Of a stretch of 64,000 bases of DNA, positions 6,183 to 62,468 are shown piece after piece; the first letter of the stretch is position 1, and the number at the start of each line of letters is the position of its first letter. The stretch is from Gammaproteobacteria bacterium (GTDB taxonomy: Bacteria > Pseudomonadota > Gammaproteobacteria > Pseudomonadales > Pseudohongiellaceae), in the NCBI GenBank assembly GCA_009844085.1, contig VYCF01000024.1, positions 186,001-250,000 of the forward strand. The letters are read 5' to 3'. The notes under the pieces were generated by a model, which did not search any database, was not told the DNA's origin, and saw only the letters and a list, made by a program, of their open reading frames with translations. Made by a program: the position numbers and the translations under genes.

Positions 6183-6959
6183 TCACCACGAATAACTCAA
6201 TTGTCCCTGCAAGGCATAGTCCGCGCTGCCCTCGGTGAAGCCGCGGCCGACCAGCGCGGTCAGCGACCAGCGGGGCGATAACTGAAAGCTCACATAGGGA
6301 TAGATTTCGTGGGTTTCCCTGGCGAAAACCGCCGGAGCCTCGCGATAGTCGTAAAACGCCCCGGCGCTGGTCCGCTCCGATAGCTGCCGCGCGAAACCGA
6401 GCTGCACAAAGCTGTTGTCGTTCAATCCGGGAAACAGGTCCGTTCGGCCACGGAAATTTCGCCCGAGACTGGCAAACCAGGTCGTTTCGCCGTAAACCTG
6501 CGAAAAATCGATCTGCAGGCTGAAATCGAGTTTCCCCGTACCCAGGCTCCGATTCTCATCCGCCGTCGGCAACTTGACATCAAGGCGCAAGTCCACGAAA
6601 GGCGCCCAGTCCGCAATTGGATCCAGCGCATAACTGATTCCGGCTATCGTGTCGCCGAATCCCGCCTCGGTAGTGACTTCGGAACCGGCGATGGCCCTGG
6701 TCACTTCGCCGATATTTACCAGCACGTTTCCGACGCCGGTTACCGACAGGCCCGCCGTCAGCAACTGGAATCCCCAGCGCTCTCCCTGCCATTGGTAGCC
6801 GATTGGAAGATAGCGGATCGTTGTGTCGGAATGCCCGTTGAACTTGCCTTCGGCGAAATAGGCGCCAAGGTTCAGCCTATGTTCCGGCTGCTGGGCGCAC
6901 GCGACCGCGGGCAGGATCAGAGCCCATAGCGGGGCCCATACCAGATAAGCGCTTCTCAC
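6183..6959 (-). CDS. Beta-barrel outer-membrane protein
   Basis: From a GTG at 6959 that overlaps the msrB stop (GTGA), the 258-residue product begins with a signal peptide ([18 protein letters not shown], cleavage near residue 20). Alternating hydrophobic beta-strands and a C-terminal aromatic residue (LQGQLSYSW) are typical of outer-membrane barrels; the pattern resembles Phenol_MetA_deg-type barrels. The frame stays open into msrB, but that extension is msrB read in another frame and has no signal peptide at its start. It probably shares the msrB transcript. Cargo is unknown. Confidence 0.75.
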
Positions 6960-7354
6960 TGCCGCTTCTGGAAATCGAGCGCGGCGGAGTTGATGCAATA
7001 ACGTAACCCGGTTTCGGGCGGGCCGTCGGAAAAAACATGGCCCAGATGGGAATCGCAACGGCTGCAGGTGACTTCGGTGCGAATCATGCCATGGGACTGA
7101 TCGAGTTTCTCCTCGACCGAGGCCTGTTCGGCGGGGGCGCTGAAGCTCGGCCAGCCCGAACCCGAGTCGTATTTGTCCTCGGACTTGAACAGTTCCTCGC
7201 CGCAGGCCGCGCACAGGTAAGTCCCCGTTTCCTTGCTGGCCCAGTACCGGCCCGTGAACGCCATCTCGGTGCCCTTTTCGCGGGTGACCCTGTATACGTC
7301 GGGCGCCAGCTCCTCGCGCCATTGTTCGTCCGATTTCTCAATCTTTCCTTTCAT
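6956..7354 (-). CDS. msrB: Peptide methionine (R)-S-oxide reductase MsrB
   Basis: MsrB reduces the R-epimer of methionine sulfoxide in proteins. The product is 132 aa from the ATG at 7354 (preceded by GGGGGTCAGG). It has two zinc-binding CxxC pairs (CAAC and CSRC), the GSGWPSF motif and the catalytic Cys in RYCINSAAL. The frame is open about 90 codons further upstream, but that part is Pro/Ala/His-rich, lies in the intergenic region facing alaA and is not conserved. Its stop overlaps the start of the barrel gene. Confidence 0.95.
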
Positions 7355-7433
7355 CCTGACCCCCTTGCTCACCCCCACAGAACAATTATCGGCTGAAGCC
7401 GGAACTTGCTTCAAGTTGACTCGGAATTGTGGC

Positions 7434-7458
7434 TTGACAGCGTATGTAGGGGTAAGTA
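7434..7458 (+). promoter_or_regulatory. Possible sigma-70 promoter for alaA
   Basis: A perfect TTGACA at 7434-7439 sits 53 bp before the alaA start. The best -10 is a weak TAAGTA at 7453-7458 or TAACGT at 7457-7462. A second -35-like TTGACT lies at 7416-7421. Only the -35 is convincing. Confidence 0.3.
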
Positions 7459-7491
7459 ACGTCCGCGGCTTTTGGATTTGGGCGCATTCTG

Positions 7492-8709
7492 ATGCAGAGA
7501 ATTGAGCAATCGCACAAGCTGGACAATGTCTGTTATGACATTCGTGGGCCTGTGCTGGAGCAGGCGCGGCGGCTGGAGGAGGATGGGCACCGGATTCTGA
7601 AACTGAATATCGGCAATCCGGCGGCATTCGGTTTCGATGCGCCGGACGAGATTCTGCACGACGTGATCCACAATCTCGCGAACGCCCAGGGTTACAGCGA
7701 TTCGAAGGGCCTGTTCCCCGCCCGCAAGGCCATCATGCACGAATGCCAGCAATTGCGGATCGGCGGGGTCGGGATCGAGGATATTTATCTCGGCAACGGG
7801 GTGAGCGAACTGATCACCATGGCGATGCAGGCGCTGCTCAACGATGGCGAGGAAGTGCTGATTCCGGCGCCGGACTATCCGCTGTGGACGGCGGCGGTCA
7901 GCCTTGGGGGCGGCGTGCCGGTGCATTACCGCTGCGACGAAGAACGGCTATGGTTTCCGGACACGGCGGACATCGAGGCCAGGATCACGCCGCGAACGCG
8001 GGCGCTGGTCATTATCAATCCGAACAATCCGACGGGCGCGGTTTACAGCAGGGAGATTCTGCTTGAGTTGGTCGAGATTGCGCGGCGGCATGAACTGATC
8101 CTGTTCGCCGACGAGATCTACAGCAAGATCGTTTACGACGGCGCCGAGTACATCCCGCTGGCTTCGCTGTGCGACGATCTCTTCATCGTCACTTTCAACG
8201 GCCTGTCGAAATCCTACCGTCTCGCCGGATTTCGTTCCGGCTGGATGATCCTGAGCGGGCCGAAGGAACTCGCAAGCAGTTATATCGAGGGGCTGGACAT
8301 ACTTTCCAACATGCGTTTGTGCGCCAATGTGCCCGCACAATTCGCCATACAGACCGCGCTCGGCGGATACCAGAGCATCAACGAACTGATTCTGCCGGGC
8401 GGGCGGCTTGCGCGGCAAAGAGACGCCGCCCTGGAAATGCTCAATGAAATTCCCGGGCTGAACTGCGTCAAGCCCTCCGGAGCGATTTACCTGTTTCCGG
8501 GACTTGATCCGGATCATTTCACCATCGGCAGCGACCTTGATCTCGTACTGGACATTCTGCTGCGGGAAAAAATCCTGCTGGTGCAAGGCAGCGCCTTCAA
8601 CAATCCGGGTTCCCGGCATTTCCGGCTGGTCTTCCTGCCGCATGAAGACGAGATGCAGGCGGCCATCGCCGCGGTCGCCCGGGTGCTCGACGACTATCGT
8701 ACCGGCTGA
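7492..8709 (+). CDS. alaA: Alanine-synthesising aminotransferase AlaA (YfbQ type)
   Basis: This fold-type-I PLP aminotransferase is expected to make alanine from pyruvate and glutamate. At 405 residues it matches E. coli AlaA in length. Visible motifs are the substrate/PLP loop NPNNPTG (176-182), [10 protein letters not shown] around 207-216, the Schiff-base Lys240 in [17 protein letters not shown], and a C-terminal FRLVFLP that carries the carboxylate-binding Arg. It is divergent from msrB and its 3' end overlaps convergent pdxB by 16 bp. Confidence 0.93.
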
Positions 8710-14643: not shown

Positions 14644-14783
14644 GGCCTCGACCCGTTGCTGCCGGGCCGGGGGAGAGTACAGCGGACGCCGTAAATACGT
14701 CCCTGTAGGCTCCGGGCTCGGCGTCCTGCCTCGCACGCCCGCTGTACTCTCCCCCGTCCCGGCGGCGACTCACGACTGTGCTT
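14644..14783 (-). repeat. Hairpin repeat, copy A (inverted relative to copies B and C)
   Basis: This is one of three related elements of about 138 bp (see 16290-16427 and 61518-61655). An 18-bp perfect inverted repeat (14668-14685 with 14739-14756) encloses a 53-bp core containing the conserved TACAGGGACGTATT (minus strand). The core is nearly identical to that of copy C, but the stem sequence is completely different. The outer flanks share GTGAGTCGCCG with the other copies. It fills most of the interval between fadB and mazF. Confidence 0.85.
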
Positions 14784-16247: not shown

Positions 16248-16469
16248 ACGAGATTCTGCGACTACGCCCAGAATAACTTGTTTCTGGGTCTGCACGATGT
16301 GAGTCGCCGTCGGGTGGCGCGGGGTTTAGCGGGCGTCCCCGACATGGATGTCGGGGCCGAATCGTACAGGGACGTATTCACAGCGTCCGCTAAATCCCGC
16401 GCCAGCCGGCGGCGACGGATCGAAGCCACCAACCACTACAACACACCCAACGAGATTCTGCGGCTACGC
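16248..16469. repeat. 20-bp direct repeats flanking hairpin repeat B
   Basis: A 20-bp sequence containing GAGATTCTGCG occurs at 16248-16267 and again at 16450-16469 with one mismatch, one on each side of hairpin repeat B. The right copy also forms an inverted repeat, ATTCTGCG (16455-16462) with CGCAGAAT (16479-16486). The rest of the interval from 16228 to 16566 holds no gene I can support. Confidence 0.6.
16290..16427 (+). repeat. Hairpin repeat, copy B
   Basis: This 138-bp element has inverted arms of 18 bp (16315-16332 with 16387-16404, one G-T type mismatch) around a 54-bp core. The core has an inner perfect hairpin CCCCGACA-TGGA-TGTCGGGG and then TACAGGGACGTATT. The outer flanks GTCGCCGTCGG and CCGGCGGCGAC also nearly pair. 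Flanks match copy C closely; the arms do not. Confidence 0.85.
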
Positions 16470-53541: not shown

Positions 53542-53648
53542 ATGAGCCTCACCAAGTTGACCAATTATGTTACCATGCCGCGAAAATTTGAGTCTAGACC
53601 AGATTTTAATAGAAGCGCTCTCTCGCAAACTCTTCTGAGAAGTGAATA

Positions 53649-53663
53649 GTCGGTAACACCGAC
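53649..53663 (+). repeat. Small hairpin before the accessory membrane-protein gene
   Basis: GTCGGT-AAC-ACCGAC is a perfect 6-bp hairpin 19 bp upstream of the ATG at 53683, just before the AGGA ribosome-binding site. It could modulate translation. The rest of 53542-53682 shows no clear promoter. Confidence 0.35.
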
Positions 53664-53682
53664 AAAGGATAGGAATAAATTT

Positions 53683-54246
53683 ATGATCAATGTACCTGTT
53701 GTTATAGCTGCCGGTACAATTGGCGCGTTCATTTCAGGCCTTATTGGATTTCTAAGTTTGATAATTAGTAAGGATCAAAAAGTTTCTGAATTTCGTCAAT
53801 TATGGATTGATGGTCTTCGCAAAGATGTATCAATATTCATTTCATACATATATGCCAAAGTTGGACTTCAAGTCAAAGGTGTCATAGAAGATTCTACAGA
53901 GGATTCGCAAATTATAAGTTCAGACATTTTTCATGCAAGCAAGGCCGCATCAAGAATTCGACTAAGACTAAATCGCAAAGAAAATGAATCCGATAGTATT
54001 CTGAAAAAAATATCGAAAATTGAAGAATTGAGTAGTTTTGGTTTAATTCCCGACACTGACGAAATTGTTAGTGAAGTGAACGAACTCGTCCAGCTTACGC
54101 AAGATTTACTAAAGAATGAGTGGAAAAGAGTTAAACGTGGAGAATTAACCTATCTGATTGCAAAGTGGTTGGCGATAGTCTTCCTTATTTGTGCGATGAT
54201 TATTCCTTTTATCCTCCATCATAAAGGAGTTCTAAATTTTGTGTGA
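53683..54246 (+). CDS. Hypothetical two-transmembrane protein at the edge of the accessory block
   Basis: This 187-aa protein has an N-terminal membrane segment (about 5-28, [23 protein letters not shown]), a long charged helical middle (30-155) and a C-terminal segment (about 160-182, [17 protein letters not shown]). Codon use is strongly AT-rich, unlike nadA next to it. It is convergent with the six-gene operon and could be a membrane effector or an unrelated passenger. I do not recognise a family. Confidence 0.65.
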
Positions 54247-54293
54247 AAATTTATAATTCCAGGTTAAGGAAGAATTAACTTGCACTCTATAAA

Positions 54294-55322
54294 TTACCTT
54301 ACGGTAAAAGCTGGATGATTTGATGAAGGCTGGGCATACGCATCACTTATTAAGCTATTGACTGCTACAGCCAAATCTACGCCATGACTTCTTGTGTTAT
54401 CTGTTACAATTTTCTTAGCACCGGTCGCTCTTATGTATTCAATCGTACCTTCAAAATCAGCGTGGTTGGTTAGCGCTACTCCGAAGGCCTTCTCAGAATA
54501 CTCAACAACTGGATTGTCAGGCTTCGTCATGAAAGCACTACAGGAAATGCTAGTTCCTTCAATGAGCTCGTTTCGGAATCCATCGCCTTTAGCGTAGAGT
54601 CGAACATATGACTTACCATTTAGGGCAACTCGCCCTTTTTCTGAATCAGTACTGGTGACAGACCCTAAAGCGAAGCCATTAGCCTGATACACTGAAATTT
54701 CACTGATTAGTCTCTTGCTTCCCAAGATTGGAACCCCAATGTTGGCGGACAATATATGTAGAACCCGCTCTATAGTCCCTCTATGGGCATGAATATGTAC
54801 GGAACCATGACGAAGTCTTTGACTAACGATTTCGAGTAGACAACTTTCGGCCTCTCCTTGTGAGTACTTGCGGATGCTCGCTGAGCTCCCATAAGTACTA
54901 TCTACGACAAGTTCATCGACTTGAATCACATCGTTTATAGGCCATGAGAAATCCCCAGAATACCCACAACGAAGTCCGTCCGGGTATTCCACTACAACTT
55001 GGGTGGAACCCAGCATATGTCCTGATCTAACGAATGTGAGCTTTGTTCCATCCTCCAATTCTTTCTCTTCGCCCCAACCGAGTGAAATTATATTATCTCG
55101 ATATTCAATGTCGGCGTTCAGTTCTGCTATCAGGAGCGCCTTGGTTTCCCTACTCATGAAAATATCTTGCAGGCCTTTGCTTCTGTTAAAATCTCCCATG
55201 TGATCGTCATGGATGTGTGTCTGTACGCGAAAATCAAAGCCTTCTGCGTAACCGTCACAAACCAGATTAGTTCCAAGGCGTACGGCGCCATTGTCAAATA
55301 CGTCAACTCTCAGATGATCCAT
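54294..55322 (-). CDS. Beta-CASP metallo-beta-lactamase-fold nuclease
   Basis: The 342-aa protein has the metal motif HIHDDH (36-41), His102 in SGHMLGS, Asp124 in SGDFSW, the CPSF-like DSTYGS (141-146) and a late motif NHADF (His287). These are hallmarks of beta-CASP nucleases that process RNA or DNA ends (CPSF73/SNM1-related). The beta-CASP insert is short. It is the last gene of the operon; its start overlaps the preceding gene by 20 bp and has GGAGA upstream. Whether the substrate is DNA or RNA is unknown. Confidence 0.8.
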   Translation of the reverse strand: MDHLRVDVFDNGAVRLGTNLVCDGYAEGFDFRVQTHIHDDHMGDFNRSKGLQDIFMSRETKALLIAELNADIEYRDNIISLGWGEEKELEDGTKLTFVRSGHMLGSTQVVVEYPDGLRCGYSGDFSWPINDVIQVDELVVDSTYGSSASIRKYSQGEAESCLLEIVSQRLRHGSVHIHAHRGTIERVLHILSANIGVPILGSKRLISEISVYQANGFALGSVTSTDSEKGRVALNGKSYVRLYAKGDGFRNELIEGTSISCSAFMTKPDNPVVEYSEKAFGVALTNHADFEGTIEYIRATGAKKIVTDNTRSHGVDLAVAVNSLISDAYAQPSSNHPAFTVR

Positions 55323-56025
55323 TCTCCAATGCCTTTGCTACGAGCGCTCTGATCCTTGCCTCTATATTTTCTTTACCAATTTCTAACATTGAGGCATTAA
55401 AGTCCTCGTTACCCACAAGCGTAAATAGCTTAGGGCCGAGACGACCGGTCGCACTTCTAATTCCTAAATTTACTATTGCGGAAGTCAAAATTGAATCTCT
55501 GGCAGATTGGGTCTTCTGTGCCAAAATCGATTCGCTTTCTGTAGACATCGATCCAACAAACACAAACCGCTTTGTGACCTGTTTCCGCATACCAAGCACT
55601 TCATTTAAACATTCACGGATGGTCTTTTCTGATCGATTTCGGAGTTGCGCTATTTGCCGGACTTCTTTACTTGTTAGTCCGTCTGACATTATAGCCTCAG
55701 CGACAATGCGTTGCTCCTTATCATCATTTAGTTTTGTTAGCTCGAACGCAGCTGTGAATCCTAGAAAACTCTTATCCGCACCCCATCCTACTAAATGTCG
55801 TAAATCTTCCGGAAGATTGAGGATGGTTAAGAATCTACCTATATGCCCAACACCGTCGAGTTGGATAGCTTTAGCACAGTCTTGGAGGGACATACCTTCC
55901 GAGCGAGCCTTTTGCAGAAGTTCTCCCACTTCAATTGGTGATAGAGGGCGCCCCTTCTTGTGTGTCCCATATCCGAGAGACATACGAAGGCGACCAAGTT
56001 CCAATGCATTTAGCCCAGCAAGCAT
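55303..56025 (-). CDS. ParB-like HTH protein lacking the ParB/sulfiredoxin nuclease domain
   Basis: The 240-aa protein resembles the central HTH part of ParB/Spo0J: LSPIEVGELLQKARSEGMSL, a helix-turn-helix (about 45-72), and NLPEDLRHLVGWG, followed by a second helical region to about 150. The N-terminal part that binds CTP in ParB is missing. The last 90 residues are unassigned. It follows the canonical parB by 3 bp and probably acts with it as a DNA-binding partner. The genes are not near-identical duplicates. Confidence 0.6.
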   Translation of the reverse strand: MLAGLNALELGRLRMSLGYGTHKKGRPLSPIEVGELLQKARSEGMSLQDCAKAIQLDGVGHIGRFLTILNLPEDLRHLVGWGADKSFLGFTAAFELTKLNDDKEQRIVAEAIMSDGLTSKEVRQIAQLRNRSEKTIRECLNEVLGMRKQVTKRFVFVGSMSTESESILAQKTQSARDSILTSAIVNLGIRSATGRLGPKLFTLVGNEDFNASMLEIGKENIEARIRALVAKALENGSSES

Positions 56026-56028
56026 ACT

Positions 56029-56856
56029 TTAACCACCTTCCAAGGCTCCACGATCAACTAAGGCTTCTTCGATTAGCAGGGCCACTGTTTCATCCTGATT
56101 CGCCCCTTCTTCCTTGGCCACTTGCTGAATAGCCGCATGAACGTTTTGAGTAACGGTTGCAATCACTTGGACTACCTTTGATCCTGTTTTTGCTTGTTCA
56201 ATGACTTCATCAACATTACGATCGGGGTTGTCCTTAATTGCTTCAATTACTTTTTTCCGTTGGACTCCGCTCATAGGGGCTGTCTCCTTGGCTAGTTGAA
56301 CAGCAACCTCCGGGTTAACAACCCCTTCGTCATCGCTCGCAGCATCTTGTGCCTTTACCGCCACATTTACATCAACGACACCCTCATCAACCAGATCTTT
56401 CAGATCTTTGATCAGCCTGGGATACTTAATGTATTCGGAGACCTTGCTTCTTGGCAGACCGGTGGTTTCTACCACTTCTTTGACAGTCCCATAAAAATTG
56501 TATAAGACATTCACCCCATCCTTCAGTTCCTTTCCAGTAAGCTGCCGTCGAATCAAGTTTTCTGTTATGGAGATGGCCTTCGCTTGTCCCTCGTCGACCC
56601 GCTCATCCAGTACAGCTGCGGAAATTTTTTCCTTCCCCAAGTGTTTATGGGCCAAAAAACGTCTTTGCCCAGTTAGAATCTCCCACTTACCTTCCTCACG
56701 GGCTTGGCAAACGACGATGGGTTGCAACAGACCTTGAATTTCAATGCTTCTTGCTAACTCATCTATCTCTTGTCCAGTGTTTTGCGTACGAACTTGCCCC
56801 TTGCCGATAACCATATCATCCAAGGGAATTTCACGATACTCCACGATTTTTGCCAT
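56029..56856 (-). CDS. ParB/Spo0J-family protein
   Basis: The 275-aa protein has the ParB N-terminal fold (MAKIVEYREIPLDDMVIG), the nucleotide-binding motif LTGQRRFLAHKHLG (61-74) and ITENLIRRQLT (97-107), then an HTH domain (about 110-155, with VVETTGLPRSKVSEYI). No ParA accompanies it, so plasmid partition is unlikely. In this operon it may be a site-specific DNA-loading clamp or nuclease component. It is 4 bp downstream of the SNF2 gene. Confidence 0.85.
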   Translation of the reverse strand: MAKIVEYREIPLDDMVIGKGQVRTQNTGQEIDELARSIEIQGLLQPIVVCQAREEGKWEILTGQRRFLAHKHLGKEKISAAVLDERVDEGQAKAISITENLIRRQLTGKELKDGVNVLYNFYGTVKEVVETTGLPRSKVSEYIKYPRLIKDLKDLVDEGVVDVNVAVKAQDAASDDEGVVNPEVAVQLAKETAPMSGVQRKKVIEAIKDNPDRNVDEVIEQAKTGSKVVQVIATVTQNVHAAIQQVAKEEGANQDETVALLIEEALVDRGALEGG

Positions 56857-56860
56857 TTCC

Positions 56861-58252
56861 TTAATTTTCCTCCTGCCTTTCTGTAGTTGAATTCATGCCA
56901 CTTTCGGAAAGTTCGAGAATATACATCAATTCCTTTACGGAGAAACCGCGAGAAGCGGTTTCCACGGATTCGACAATATCGCTGAACATTTCCTCTTTGC
57001 TACCCAAAATGCTAGCTATACGTTCTTCGATCGTATCAACAACCAAAAATCGAACAACATGAAGCGGATCTTCCCGATCAAACCTATGTGCTCGGTAAAT
57101 CGCTTGCATCTCGACAGCTGGGTTCCACCATCTGTCAAACATTACAACGTGCGTCGCCTCTCCCAGATTCAATCCCACGCCACCGGCCCTCAACGATATG
57201 AACAGGATTCGGGGTGACCTGCCAGTTTTGAAGCTCTCTATGGCATTCTGCCGCTCATCAATCGACATTGAGCCCGTTATGAAATCGCAAGGAATGCTAA
57301 TCTGCTGAGAAAGCCATTTCAAGGTCTCGACGAACTGCGAAAAAACCAGCACTCGAGCGTTTGCCCCCATGCCCTCGCAAAGCTCCTTCAAAGCATCCAG
57401 TTTGGACGATTTATTGGTCTCGGAGTCAAAATTGCACACAATCTTAAGGCGAGTTATCAACCCAAGCAATACAGCCGCAGGGCTCTCGGCGTCTGTACCG
57501 ACGGCATTCTTTCGCTCCATCCATAGTTGATCGTAGGCAACTTTTTGTGAAGATAGTAACTCTAGCTTCATGTCCTGAATGATGACAGGAGGAAGTTCCC
57601 CTCTGACCTCACGTTTCCTTCTACGCAGCATCATTGAACTTAGCATGGACGAAAGTTGCGTACTTGAGAGGTCCGTTGGTAAGGATGGATTCAGAAATCC
57701 AAGAATTGAGGCCACATCCTCCGCGTCGTTCTCTAGGGGAGTGGCAGATAGGGCCCAAGAGTGCTTTCGAGGGAGTAATCGACAGGCTAACGATGTTCGG
57801 GAGTACTTGTTCTTTATGCGCTGGGCTTCGTCAAGAATTACTATGTCAAACGTGTTGGCTGGAATCCGGTCAAGACCGTCTTTTCTGATTTGTTCATAGG
57901 AGCCAACCAAAACTGGAACAGGGAGCATGTATAGAGCTTCGCGATCACTGATAGTTCCTTGCAGGCGTCGAACCGCGAGTGATGGAGCCCATATGTCCAG
58001 TTCCGCCATCCAATTGGTAATCAGCGATGCAGGGGCAACGATGAGTGAACGCCTGATATCATTTTTTGCGTTCAACAAGAGGGCCAGGGCAACTGAGGCC
58101 TGGACCGTCTTACCCAAGCCCATTTCGTCAGCAAGCAGCGCTGCACTTGAACGAAAGAGGAAGGAAACGCCTTCCCATTGGTAGTCGTGTAACCTACTCG
58201 GGACACCGAGCATGTCCTCAGCGTGGTGTCGAAGTTCCAATATCTCGTTCAT
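56861..58252 (-). CDS. Minimal SNF2-family DNA translocase/helicase
   Basis: The 463-aa protein contains little beyond the two RecA-like lobes: motif I DEMGLGKT (42-49), motif II DEAQ, motif III SATPLEN, motif V SLRAGGVGLNL and motif VI IYRAHRFDR. No extra nuclease or zinc domain is present. SNF2 proteins translocate on duplex DNA and occur in many restriction and defence systems. It is 21 bp downstream of the DUF262 gene and 4 bp before parB. Confidence 0.9.
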   Translation of the reverse strand: MNEILELRHHAEDMLGVPSRLHDYQWEGVSFLFRSSAALLADEMGLGKTVQASVALALLLNAKNDIRRSLIVAPASLITNWMAELDIWAPSLAVRRLQGTISDREALYMLPVPVLVGSYEQIRKDGLDRIPANTFDIVILDEAQRIKNKYSRTSLACRLLPRKHSWALSATPLENDAEDVASILGFLNPSLPTDLSSTQLSSMLSSMMLRRRKREVRGELPPVIIQDMKLELLSSQKVAYDQLWMERKNAVGTDAESPAAVLLGLITRLKIVCNFDSETNKSSKLDALKELCEGMGANARVLVFSQFVETLKWLSQQISIPCDFITGSMSIDERQNAIESFKTGRSPRILFISLRAGGVGLNLGEATHVVMFDRWWNPAVEMQAIYRAHRFDREDPLHVVRFLVVDTIEERIASILGSKEEMFSDIVESVETASRGFSVKELMYILELSESGMNSTTERQEEN

Positions 58253-58273
58253 CCGACTCGGCTCTGTTGGTAG

Positions 58274-60040
58274 CTACGCTTTACCTGGGGAAAATTGCCA
58301 CACTGATGCAGCCTCCTTTGCAAGTGCCTTGGATCTCTTCTCGATGACCTTTGGTGTCCATTCCTCGTGGCTCTCAGCGACTGTTCTGGGCATCTGTAAC
58401 GTACTATTCTCGTACAACTGCGCTTTGGCCTGAAAACTTTTGTTAAATTCTTCGCTGGATCGATTTTCCCTTCTAGTCAGAATCACCATATTGCCGGTGC
58501 GATAGATGCATTCCTTTGCGCTTTCCTCCGAAAATGCCTTCCAATCAGACCAGTATTGATCGGATTGCGGCAGTACATGCTCAACAGTGCAGTGATCTCG
58601 CCTCAAAATCTCAGAACCAACCTGAAGTTTGGAGTTAATGCCAAATAAGAATCGTAGTGCTTTGGCATTGGTGCGTATTTCCATGTCTGTCATTCGGCGG
58701 ATAAATCTTGCATTGTCAATCACTTCATATTCGTCCGTTCCAGCTAGCTCCTCATAGATATCGAGCGATTGCAAATCAGTTCCCTTGAAAACATCCATGG
58801 CAAAATTAGAAAACGCTGCTTCGAATTTGGAGGGTTCAAACTTGGAAGCCACGAAAGTGGTCCTCATCACGAATGAAGTGAGATTTTTTAGGCTACGAGC
58901 CACCACCAAGCCAACCTTACGTTTCGCCTCTTTATCCTTTTCTTCAAGGAATCGATGCAACAGAGCGAACACCAAGGGTTGAGTCACCTTATAGTCCTTG
59001 AGCTCGCTGAGCAAAACAGTAACGTCTCTATAGCCGGTGGTCTTGGGAAGGTTCGTATTTATTACCGCATCCGGTCTCGAAGACGTAAGTGTCCGAAACA
59101 GTTGCATGCTCTCTTGCTTACCCAGTCCGGCGATGAGTCGGTATACGTAGCTCGATGGATCATTTTGTCCAGCAGCTCTTTCTACTTTTTGTCTGGCTTC
59201 TCTATAGAACCTGTTCTTCTGTAGATATCCATACTTGCATTGCAAATAGCATCGGAAATATTCCTGCACATTGCTTGGCCCTAAAACTACGGCTGGCGAC
59301 TCTAGTCTTTCATGGACAGTCTCCCGGCGGTTAGGGTCGTACTGGTCAGAAAAATACGAATACAATCGATTACGGATCAAATCGACATCGTCTAGGGGTT
59401 TGCCGCGGGCATTCAGTGATTCGAATACTGAATTCGCATCCACATCACCGGGCACTTCGAGCATCGACACCTCAACATTTTGCATAACAAAATCTGAAAA
59501 GCTCTCGATTGTTCGTCGATCCATTGCTCCTACGAACATATCGATTACATCCCACGCGGATGTGAGTGCCCCATTGGTTCCAATATCGTGACCTCGAATC
59601 AATTGCTGATATGTGGATTTGTTTCGCCTTGGAGGCTCAATTCTTGGCTTGTACTTGGCAGCGTCAGACAGCTTGAGTATGTGGTAATCAGGCTCGTCAA
59701 ACAAGGCACGTAGTCCACGTGTCTCTCTCGCACTATCTGGAGGCAGCATCTTTTCAAAACGACGGCAGAGGGCGGCGATCAGTAAAGACAGTGTTATGAG
59801 TCGTTGTTGTCCATCATTGATCCTTAGCGAAGGTGTCGAGTTCGACTTGACGAGCATTATCGAACCAACGAAATAACATGCTTTATCGGCCTCCGCCGCG
59901 TCGTGCAGGTCGGTCAGCAGTTCACCAACTTGCTCTACCTTCCAGTCATAGTAGCGCTGATGCCAAGGGACAGTGAAGCATCCCGAACACAGGACTTCTG
60001 ACACGAGGCGAACCTCGGATGTGATCTTTGTCTTGCTCAA
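58274..60040 (-). CDS. DUF262-DUF1524 protein (SspE/GmrSD-like nuclease architecture)
   Basis: The 588-aa protein has the DUF262 ParB-like signature VPWHQRYYDW (24-33) and NDGQQRLITL (75-84). The C-terminal DUF1524 HNH-like region runs from about 483 to 545 (VEHVLPQ, then GNMVILTRREN). This is the architecture of GmrSD type IV enzymes and of SspE, which senses phosphorothioate DNA. It lies 23 bp downstream of the DndC-like gene. I infer a modification-dependent or modification-inhibited nuclease. Confidence 0.82.
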   Translation of the reverse strand: MSKTKITSEVRLVSEVLCSGCFTVPWHQRYYDWKVEQVGELLTDLHDAAEADKACYFVGSIMLVKSNSTPSLRINDGQQRLITLSLLIAALCRRFEKMLPPDSARETRGLRALFDEPDYHILKLSDAAKYKPRIEPPRRNKSTYQQLIRGHDIGTNGALTSAWDVIDMFVGAMDRRTIESFSDFVMQNVEVSMLEVPGDVDANSVFESLNARGKPLDDVDLIRNRLYSYFSDQYDPNRRETVHERLESPAVVLGPSNVQEYFRCYLQCKYGYLQKNRFYREARQKVERAAGQNDPSSYVYRLIAGLGKQESMQLFRTLTSSRPDAVINTNLPKTTGYRDVTVLLSELKDYKVTQPLVFALLHRFLEEKDKEAKRKVGLVVARSLKNLTSFVMRTTFVASKFEPSKFEAAFSNFAMDVFKGTDLQSLDIYEELAGTDEYEVIDNARFIRRMTDMEIRTNAKALRFLFGINSKLQVGSEILRRDHCTVEHVLPQSDQYWSDWKAFSEESAKECIYRTGNMVILTRRENRSSEEFNKSFQAKAQLYENSTLQMPRTVAESHEEWTPKVIEKRSKALAKEAASVWQFSPGKA

Positions 60041-60063
60041 TGGATCGTCCTTGTCAACTGCAA

Positions 60064-61227
60064 TTAAACAACGGCTTCAAGGCTGCGATGCAATGCCTGG
60101 CGCGCATCTTCTTTGATCTCGTCTCTCCACCATACGTCTTCGATACAATCGATCTCGGCCGGCAGAATCAACTGCTCGCCTATCTCCGATTCCAGCTCCC
60201 TCAGCTTGTTGAGAATCAGCTTGCGAACTTCAAGTTTGAATGGTCCCAGGATTGGGCTCCCGTCCTCGCGATATTCGACATTTCCGTTTCGTCGCACAGG
60301 CAATCGATTTTCCTTGTCTTCCCTAAGTTCCAACAGCCACTCTCTAAAATCGAATAGTGCTTCCAATTTGTCGGTTTCACCGTGGCCGGAGTCTATCAGC
60401 CCTTTGAGGCTCCGGTCCTTCTGGACAACAGTACAGGTCCAGCAGCCAAATCGTGGCGACGTGCTGCCGCAGGAAGGAGCCTGTTCCTTCGTGACGACTA
60501 AAGGACACTCCCCTCCCCCCGCATTGCGATACAGGGTAATCAAGCGCCGATGGGTGCCCCCCCATGGTGGATTCCGTTGCATAAGCGTCATCCACACGTC
60601 GTTGTCTTCCAAGTCGGCCAGCGGCGCAAACATCTGGCAGCCCTCGACTAAACCTTGCGGATTCAATTTCTGGGCGGAAACACCTCGGTTGTTCATCGCG
60701 CGCCGGCGATTGTCCGACTCCGCGCGCCGCGTGCCGATCAGCAAAATGGCGCCGTTGAACTCCTGCGTGAGCCGAAGGATCAGCTTATTCGTCGGCGAGA
60801 TTTTCATCCGGTCGGTACACCAGCGAAAATTCCTGGTGGGCGGAATGTAGCCCCTCCCAATGACACTGACCCAGAAAGTCTGATCAATGCATGGCGTCGT
60901 AACTTCAGTTGAGATGGGGAGGCCCGATTTGCCCCCAGCGAGATCGATTTGGCGCAGCGAATTTCGGAGATGATTGATGACGAGCGGAGATTCCACCAGT
61001 GTATCGTTGCCTACCACCAGAACCTGGCGGCCTCTCTGCTTCAGCGGAAGCTCCGCGATGACCTCCCAGACCAGTTGTAGCAGCAGGGTAGAATCCTTGC
61101 CGCCCGAATACGCAACGATCCAAGGATAGCTATGAGCCTCCAGGTACTCGGACCGAATGACTCCTTTGATGTCCTCAAGGCGAGAGGGTAAGTCTGAGAT
61201 CGAAATGGGAACGGCTGGCTGTGTCAT
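60064..61227 (-). CDS. DndC-like PP-loop sulfurtransferase (PAPS-reductase fold, Fe-S)
   Basis: DndC/SspD proteins adenylate and help install sulfur in the DNA backbone. This 387-aa protein has the PP-loop SGGKDS (41-46), the DndC-type RWCTDRMK (Cys137), IGTRRAESDNRR (164-175) and candidate 4Fe-4S cysteines Cys241, Cys253, Cys262 and Cys265 (GCWTC). It is the first gene of the six-gene operon. No cysteine desulfurase or other Dnd/Ssp protein is in the window, so sulfur would have to come from a housekeeping IscS. It could instead modify a base or RNA. Confidence 0.85.
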   Translation of the reverse strand: MTQPAVPISISDLPSRLEDIKGVIRSEYLEAHSYPWIVAYSGGKDSTLLLQLVWEVIAELPLKQRGRQVLVVGNDTLVESPLVINHLRNSLRQIDLAGGKSGLPISTEVTTPCIDQTFWVSVIGRGYIPPTRNFRWCTDRMKISPTNKLILRLTQEFNGAILLIGTRRAESDNRRRAMNNRGVSAQKLNPQGLVEGCQMFAPLADLEDNDVWMTLMQRNPPWGGTHRRLITLYRNAGGGECPLVVTKEQAPSCGSTSPRFGCWTCTVVQKDRSLKGLIDSGHGETDKLEALFDFREWLLELREDKENRLPVRRNGNVEYREDGSPILGPFKLEVRKLILNKLRELESEIGEQLILPAEIDCIEDVWWRDEIKEDARQALHRSLEAVV

Positions 61228-61517
61228 ATCCTGTTGCGGCTCCTTTCCGCTAAATCCATGGAAACCCTGAGTGTGCGACCAAATGGTATACGCATATCTT
61301 CCGGTTAGCCATGAATCCAGAGAAAATAAATCGGCCCGCTTCTGGGAGTCTACATAACCCCGCGAAAGCTCGTCCGCTGCAACTCCGAATTGCTACCACC
61401 AACAGCATCTAGAAGGGTTATCGGCCTACACTCCGATTACTTCGATGACCCTGCGTACGGCAGGAAACTTTCAAAAACCGCCTACGCAACGTATTTCGAA
61501 ACCACGCAACGTGGGAT
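61228..61517. other. Intergenic region upstream of the DndC-like operon
   Basis: About 290 bp contain no gene I can support. On the minus strand a weak TATACC box occurs near 61286-61291, but no good -35 accompanies it. ACGCAACGT occurs twice (around 61485-61512), the second copy within a small hairpin CCACG-CAA-CGTGG. No integrase, attachment-site repeat or phage gene is visible. Confidence 0.4.
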
Positions 61518-61655
61518 CTGCACAATGTGAGTCGCCGTCGGGCTGTGGAGGGTGCAGCGGGCGTGCGAGGCAGGGATGCCGAGCCCGAAGCCTACAGGGA
61601 CGTATTTACGGCGTCCGCTGCACCCTCCACAGCCCGACGGTGACGGATCGGAGCC
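61518..61655 (+). repeat. Hairpin repeat, copy C
   Basis: This 138-bp element has perfect 26-bp inverted arms (61535-61560 with 61615-61640) around a 54-bp core containing TACAGGGACGTATT. The core is almost identical to that of copy A, and the flanks match copy B. The arms are unrelated in sequence to both except for the innermost few bases (AGCGG/CCGCT). It lies between the accessory operon and tRNA-Lys. Confidence 0.88.
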
Positions 61656-61678
61656 ACAAATCGTCAAGAAAAGGGAAG

Positions 61679-61754
61679 TGGTGGGTCGTATAGGATTCGA
61701 ACCTATGACCAAAAGGTTAAAAGCCTTCTGCTCTACCAACTGAGCTAACGACCC
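61679..61754 (-). tRNA. tRNA-Lys (anticodon TTT)
   Basis: A 76-nt cloverleaf with acceptor GGGTCGT/ACGACCC, D-arm TTAGCTCAGTTGGTAGAGC, anticodon loop CTTTTAA, T-arm ATAGGTTCGAATCCTAT, discriminator A and an encoded CCA. It lies 36 bp downstream of queC on the same strand. It is the right-hand boundary of the accessory block, but I found no copy of its 3' end at the other boundary. Confidence 0.97.
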
Positions 61755-61790
61755 GCGGAGGGCGCAATCTTACTACCAAATCAGAAAAAC

Positions 61791-62468
61791 TCAAGCCGGG
61801 CGATAGCGTGTCGGATCCGCGATGCCGGCTGCCGCGAAGCCCTCGCGGCGCAGCCGGCAACTGTCGCATTGACCGCAGGCCAGGCCCTGCTCGTCGGCCT
61901 GATAGCAAGACAGCGTGTCGGCGTAATCCACCCCGAGTTCCGTTCCGGCGCGAATGATCTCCGCCTTGCTCATGTGAATCAGCGGCGCTTCCAGGGTGAT
62001 CTTCCTGCCTTCGACGCCGGCCTTGGTGGCGACATCCACGAGTTGCTGGAACGCCTCGATGTATTCGGGCCTGCAGTCGGGGTAGCCCGAATAGTCAAGG
62101 GCGTTTACGCCGATGAAAATGGCGCCGGCGCCGATGACTTCGGCCCAGGCGAGCGCGTTGGAAAGAAAGATCGTGTTGCGGGCGGGTACGTAGGTTGCCG
62201 GGATTCCTTCACTGGGCGACTCGGGAACCCTGATATTGCTGTCGGTCAGGGCCGAGCCGCCGAACTGTCCGAGCGGCAGCTTGAGCACGCGATGCTCGAC
62301 GACTTCCTGATTCCGCGCCTGCCGCCTGGCCGACTCGACCTCGGCCGCCGAGCGTTGGCCGTAATCGAAACTGAGCGCGTGACAGCGGTAACCGCGCTTT
62401 GCCGCAATAGCCAGGCAAGTCGCCGAATCGAGTCCGCCGGAGAGCAGCACTACCGCCGATTGCCGCAT
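61791..62468 (-). CDS. queC: 7-cyano-7-deazaguanine synthase QueC
   Basis: QueC converts carboxydeazaguanine to preQ0 using ATP and ammonia. The 225-aa protein has the PP-loop SGGLDS (10-15), [12 protein letters not shown], and the zinc cysteines in [20 protein letters not shown]. It follows queE (23-bp gap) and precedes tRNA-Lys. Confidence 0.96.

Follow-up and report, generated by a model that had tools for sequence, protein, structure and literature searches.

The 64-kb window (the whole stretch of 64,000 nucleotides that was analysed) contains an operon of six minus-strand genes encoding, in order, a DndC, a DUF262-HNH nuclease, a SNF2 helicase, a ParB protein, a ParB-HTH protein and a beta-CASP nuclease. 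Together with ∼88 bp upstream of dndC, these genes make up a cassette at 54294..61315, as delimited by blastn to a related locus (L002). The first gene, encoding a dndC-like DNA sulfurtransferase (60064..61227, minus strand), was confirmed as an open reading frame of 387 amino acids; what a first-pass annotation had taken for a stand-alone gene instead heads an operon. The protein scores 335.1 bits against the DndC equivalog TIGR03183, above the curated cut-off of 290.4, and is matched by the PADLOC DndC models at 1.2e-110. Based on these curated sequence models, its identity is DndC far beyond chance, and the same models rule out a CysH or a tRNA thiolase, the alternative groupings that the annotation had named. 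The models and the phylogenetic tree described below, in which SspD falls far outside the DndC branch, likewise rule out SspD. All of the DndC hallmarks originally listed (SGGKDS, RWCTD, GTRRAES and C241-x11-C253-x8-C262-x2-C265) are present.

Relatives were obtained by scanning 84,980 species genomes and analysing the best 80 loci of a longer list. Among these 80, 24 loci (L002-L023, L027 and L048) encode a DndC with 58% identity or more, the next best having 51%, and are here referred to as the clade, which has 25 members when the window is included. SGGKDS and residues C137, C241, C253, C262 and C265 are kept in all 25 aligned DndCs. The roles of the Fe-S cysteines are taken from PMC12193691, which also reports a DndC loop that contacts DNA and is proposed to read the DNA motif; this loop is PTRNFRW in 24 of the 25 and carries TRS in L022. 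Its TRN is similar to the TRS loop of enzymes acting at GAAC/GTTC (PMC12193691), making GAAC-like sites a first guess for the motif. An orphan or decaying gene is ruled out by the conserved operon and the invariant active-site residues.

The second gene of the operon (58274..60040, minus strand) encodes a 588-amino acid nuclease of the GmrSD/DndI/SspE type, comprising a DUF262 domain (DGQQR) and an HNH domain (DUF1524). It matches GmrSD_N (2.1e-27) and GmrSD_C (1.1e-21), and among solved structures its best profile match is to DndI (9jfl; 1.1e-28, covering both domains), with SspE (6jiv) at 1.2e-17. The DGQQR and HNH residues are conserved in an alignment of 19 of the 24 available rows, comprising the window and 18 of 23 loci. 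The position of the phosphorothioate (PT)-sensing tyrosine (Y30/Y63 in SspE, Y25 in DndI) is His27 in the window nuclease, and across the 19 aligned nucleases it is histidine in 17, tyrosine in one (L016) and arginine in one (L022). With this replacement, the known way of reading PT may not apply to the nuclease, and the missing tyrosine weighs most heavily against a simple SspE- or DndI-like mechanism.

The remaining four genes, all on the minus strand, encode a putative DNA-tracking and degradation module. The SNF2-family helicase/translocase core (56861..58252; 463 amino acids) matches SNF2-rel_dom (5.4e-44) and Helicase_C (3.4e-23), and its GLGKT and DEAQ motifs do not vary among 17 sequences. 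The ParB protein (56029..56856; 275 amino acids) has a CTPase-type N-terminal domain and a helix-turn-helix (HTH); ParB_N is matched at 1.7e-16 and is present in all 15 members. Its conserved GQRR and ENLIRR sequences are motifs of ParB CTPases, and both profile and fold searches match it to Noc/ParB structures, the domain placement in its structure model being uncertain given a pTM of 0.48 and a pLDDT of 79. The ParB-HTH protein (55303..56025; 240 amino acids) has no CTPase domain and carries an unmatched C-terminal alpha/beta domain. Its HTH_ParB match (2.4e-4) lies slightly under the Pfam cut-off, it aligns solely to the HTH part of Spo0J/Noc (best 1.6e-4), and its model (pLDDT 89.7) has a fold matching the Noc/Spo0J HTH (best E 2e-3). 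The last gene (54294..55322; 342 amino acids) overlaps the ParB-HTH gene by 20 bp and encodes a metallo-beta-lactamase (MBL)/beta-CASP nuclease that matches TIGR04122 at 2.3e-16, under that model's cut-off, and has profile matches to FttA/CPSF and SNM1A/DCLRE1A; its motifs HxHxDH, DSTYG and NHADF are conserved or nearly so. A promoter and terminator scan of 61100-61800 found none.

The GC content of the 54-60 kb region is 43-48%, compared with ∼60% in most of the window. A blastn comparison between the window and L002 returned one 7.0-kb block (54306-61315) at 84.5% identity with unrelated flanks. The cassette adjoins a tRNA-Lys gene (61679..61754, minus strand; ARAGORN), and three close relatives with the cassette at another site still have the queC-tRNA-Lys pair. 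It was found in 2 of 25 same-genus genomes, and a ParB-HTH profile searched over 398 Pseudomonadota genomes matched its own genome and none of the other 397, indicating that the system is rare in this group. The patchy occurrence and the different insertion sites point to a mobile cassette. No direct repeats of at least 12 nt were found within 53600-54330 or within 61200-61800, each searched separately, and the window has no second copy of the 43-base end of tRNA-Lys. A viral origin is ruled out, as 16 viral-contig relatives are all at most 49% identical and 18 phage-collection records are all below 60%, the best listed being 41.7%. Between the cassette and tRNA-Lys lies a 33-nt inverted repeat (61531-61644; 94% complementary, 48-nt spacer), and the window has repeat copies at 14649-14781 and 16286-16432 that are 78-84% identical, in both orientations, to a stretch near 61.5-61.7 kb. 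A 187-amino acid plus-strand open reading frame in a low-GC stretch at 53683-54246, outside the block shared with L002, has no convincing family match.

The full six-gene operon occurs in 17 of the 24 clade loci, one of which (L004) has an insertion and broken genes; L015 is cut by a contig end after the SNF2 gene, and the contig of L013 ends after DndC. A second arrangement, B, consists of DndC, nuclease, GIY-YIG and DndB genes without SNF2 or ParB genes at the locus, and is intact in L010, L017, L020 and L022 and broken in L012. The nuclease gene directly follows dndC in 23 of the 24 loci, the contig ending in the 24th, and the pair is broken in L004 and L012. The two genes overlap by 4 bp in 15 of the 23, and the 20-bp overlap of the ParB-HTH and MBL genes recurs in 13 of 17. 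Directly upstream of DndC, 18 of the 24 loci encode a DndA/IscS-type cysteine desulfurase, which is missing from L002, L005, L027, L017 and L022; in L010 the upstream sequence is too short to decide. The desulfurase of L009 scores 405 bits for DndA (cut-off 480) and 488 for the IscS model (cut-off 548), in both cases below the cut-off. In the tree output, nine phylum labels are attached to the clade DndCs and seven to the full-operon members. Judging from the names of the metagenome-assembled genomes (MAGs), our guess is that many of these relatives have sponge or coral hosts.

Some copies have further neighbours. In L007, the gene directly upstream of the cassette desulfurase (6776-8257) encodes a DNA phosphorothioation-associated putative methyltransferase (TIGR04096, 538 bits), and L018 has a DGQHR/DndB-like gene beside the cassette. 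In L012 (9548-11251), the N-terminal DUF262 part of the nuclease is joined in frame to a DndB-like protein, which reflects either a deletion or a new fusion. Locus L089, on a Streptomyces plasmid with a MobF relaxase, has dndC without annotated dndD or dndE and an HNH endonuclease gene two genes downstream.

The 105-row tree places the 25 clade members on a single branch (100/100) inside DndC, with L074 as their sister on a long branch (100/97). The tree left out two long plasmid proteins (L108, L109), two duplicates (L001, L031), the SspD sequences of L112, L113 and L116, whose start was not parsed, and CysH and TtcA; of the rows labelled D, L049, L058 and L064 show a DndD fragment or none. 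At L074 (3785-6643), a DGQHR/DndB-like gene comes after DndC, together with a 141-amino acid open reading frame that has no match, and no DndD was found. Arrangement B does not form one branch of the clade, suggesting that the downstream module was probably exchanged or lost more than once. Partner distances correlate with those of DndC at r of 0.98 for the nuclease, 0.92 for SNF2, 0.89 for ParB, 0.86 for ParB-HTH and 0.81 for the MBL protein, calculated over the window and 16 of the 17 full-operon loci with the broken L004 left out. For every partner, 0 of 2000 permutations in a Mantel test were as high.

No gene for DndA/SspA, DndD, DndE, a CxC ATPase, DndB, SspB or SspC was found in the 64-kb window by tblastn with 17 Dnd/Ssp reference proteins, the sole match being a weak one of SspD to DndC itself; the same 17 queries found their targets in control loci. 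Neither DndD nor DndE is encoded within the fetched stretch of any of the 24 clade loci. Nearly all of the other 56 of the best 80 loci have a DndD-type ATPase gene adjoining dndC, the exceptions being L058 (none found), L074 (DndB only), and L049 and L064 (fragments). We also considered loss of the DndD-binding C-terminus seen in long DndCs as evidence, and dropped the argument because short DndCs that do have DndD also lack that C-terminus.

Genome-wide counts cover 23 of the 24 clade genomes, with L016 left out. DndE scores over the cut-off in 2 of the 23, as does DndD in the same two genomes, with DndE beside it at loci separate from the cassette. Weaker DndD-like ATPases occur in 4 more, giving 6 of 23 in all, and SspB occurs in 5. 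Together, these searches leave 16 of the 23 genomes with no DndD-like ATPase (E≤1e-10), DndE or SspB, absences that are soft because the clade genomes are mostly incomplete MAGs. Of the two control genomes, L030 gave DndD over the cut-off and L024 slightly under it; the DndE model failed on L024 and gave L030 a low score, making it a less sensitive test than that for DndD.

The bacterium carrying the window (genome 97.4% complete, 77 contigs) has other PT-related genes. Contig C70 has two SspB-SspC-SspD sets (L120, L085; L121, L086), one with SspA and the other flanked by a DndB-like gene, an unmatched 275-amino acid open reading frame and a SNF2 helicase 33% identical to that of the cassette. 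Contig C11 (L082:4194-11963) encodes a CxC/PbeC-like ATPase, a PbeA-like protein and a PT-DNA restriction endonuclease (NF045808, 232 bits). The desulfurase gene is absent from the window's copy of the cassette, and an IscS-like gene (55% identity) is found elsewhere in the genome. The initial claim that no other phosphorothioation gene accompanies dndC thus stands for the 64-kb window by tblastn and fails for the genome, given its SspBCD sets and its IscS-like and Pbe-like genes. This organism probably makes PT itself, and unless their motifs are different, the endonuclease on C11 could turn on self-DNA marked with PT. The first-pass annotation had also raised the prospect of a complete dnd or ssp set elsewhere that uses this dndC: complete ssp sets do exist, yet nothing suggests such use, since each has its own SspD.

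DndC and the nuclease never separate and usually occur with a desulfurase, suggesting a two-part core of sulfur marking and a gated nickase, and because arrangement B keeps this pair and swaps the rest, the SNF2 and ParB proteins look exchangeable. We propose, with moderate confidence, that the cassette is a mobile restriction-modification-like element marking DNA with sulfur, with a core of DndC and nuclease and an exchangeable SNF2/ParB/MBL restriction module. The intact DndC active site, the recurrent operon, the correlated distances and the absence of DndD and DndE support this proposal. Against it speak the missing PT-sensing tyrosine, the PT-DNA restriction endonuclease encoded in the same genome, the lack of a desulfurase gene in this copy and the published view, cited below, that Dnd modification needs the ABC ATPase and DndE. 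The cassette is likely to be a new form of sulfur-based DNA defence without the usual partner genes, and its role is probably antiviral. Gene content, operon structure, conservation, phylogeny and the lack of DndD and DndE are observed, and from them we infer all function and every biochemical step. Sulfur would be loaded onto DndC by a cysteine desulfurase, which most relatives encode in the operon and which is probably the genomic IscS in the present case. DndC would recognise a short motif via its conserved loop, activate the backbone phosphate with ATP and install the phosphorothioate without DndD or DndE, either alone or with its nuclease partner. Unmarked DNA would be nicked by the DUF262-HNH protein under the control of NTP hydrolysis at DGQQR. 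The exchangeable module that finds, tracks and degrades such DNA would consist of the SNF2 motor, the beta-CASP nuclease and a ParB CTPase clamp working with its HTH partner.

The SNF2 and ParB proteins may have a more central role. A bolder and rather doubtful reading is a PT machine without an ABC ATPase and DndE or SspB and SspC, where DNA is scanned for DndC by a SNF2 motor together with a ParB-type CTP clamp and unmarked DNA is passed to the two nucleases; if true, parts of the chromosome segregation machinery were recruited to a sulfur-based self/non-self check. In a related but distinct explanation, which we regard as possible though rather doubtful, the SNF2 and ParB proteins are DNA-handling subunits of the modification itself that replace the DndD ATPase and the DNA binder DndE, DndC being inactive without them. 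DndD/DndE or SspC/SspB provide activities of the same kinds as an ATP motor, a CTP clamp and a DNA-binding protein, and a SNF2 helicase also adjoins one of the SspBCD sets in the same genome. The C-terminal tail of the ParB protein may moreover be ribbon-helix-helix (RHH)-like, as one of 15 members matches RHH_6 (E 0.028), and DndE is a double RHH protein according to PMC10853773. However, the replacement of DNA-handling subunits by ParB and SNF2 proteins, as first suggested, is less supported in light of arrangement B, where four intact loci and the broken L012 have DndC and nuclease without either protein at the locus. The distances of DndC also correlate best with those of the nuclease (0.98), ahead of SNF2 (0.92) and the ParB proteins (0.86-0.89).

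It is improbable that DndC sulfurates or activates another substrate, such as RNA, a nucleotide or a protein, within an abortive-infection system. The DNA-contact loop (PMC12193691) is almost invariant in the clade (24/25), and DGQHR/DndB-like and dnd_rel_methyl genes, which are PT-associated, lie beside some copies, leaving this earlier suggestion with little support. A DndA/IscS-type desulfurase attached in 18 of the 24 loci also speaks against a different substrate, although the nuclease lacks the known PT-sensing tyrosine and DndC-like enzymes without DndD do occur in other contexts, for example among PAPS-reductase-like genes of phages and plasmids. Very improbable is a type IV-like system that depends on modification, with the DndC product serving as a signal and the nucleases directed at phage DNA that is marked or modified in some other way. 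The nuclease belongs to the GmrSD family, members of which attack modified DNA, and the genome does have a PT-dependent nuclease, but a linked modification enzyme and nuclease that move as one unit fit self-marking better. Least probable of all is that DndC acts in trans with DNA-handling subunits from other PT loci (the two SspBCD sets and the CxC/Pbe-like ATPase) and so widens the range of motifs, because although this genome does contain such loci, both Ssp sets come with their own SspD, SspB and DndD-like ATPases are found in just 5 and 6 of 23 clade genomes, respectively, and DndC distances follow those of its own operon.

PMC10853773, a 2024 survey, regards DndD and DndE as the indispensable core of Dnd modification and considers that the modification component would not function if the ABC ATPase and DndE were missing. 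A DndC clade spread over nine phyla without these two proteins, and travelling with a nuclease of its own, offers a direct way to test what DNA sulfuration minimally requires. The cassette further connects ParB CTP switches with DNA-backbone defence.

Our searches of open-access papers, which leave out most subscription journals and preprints, turned up no account of this gene set. Like Dnd (DndABCDE), the cassette is associated with a cysteine desulfurase, adjoining DndC in 18 of 24 relatives and here represented by the genomic IscS-like gene, but it lacks the DndD ABC ATPase and DndE. In Salmonella, DndI coupled to iscS-dndBCDE is described as a PT-sensing antiphage system in PMC11662687. 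That system likewise combines DndC with a DUF262-HNH nuclease of ∼590 amino acids and draws its sulfur from IscS, whereas the window cassette lacks DndB, DndD and DndE, has histidine at the DndI Tyr25 position and has an additional SNF2-ParB-ParB-MBL module. With SspABCD-SspE it shares an NTP-gated DUF262-HNH effector with the DGQQR and HNH residues; unlike that system it has DndC rather than SspD, no SspB or SspC in the operon, and no conservation of Tyr30/Tyr63. The PbeABCD/CxC-ATPase systems similarly couple a helicase/nuclease module to PT modification, but with different proteins, and the Pbe-like genes of the same genome lie outside the cassette on contig C11. The cassette SNF2 protein resembles the helicase part of DpdE (1.2e-62) from the 7-deazaguanine system Dpd, which also has a ParB-family partner; the modification enzyme here is DndC, however, and none of the nine proteins scanned matched DpdA. 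The nearest precedent for a DndC-like enzyme without DndD and DndE is the TdpABC system of thermophiles (An et al. 2025), in which the DndC-like TdpC reportedly modifies DNA without DndD or DndE and alongside a separate restriction complex.
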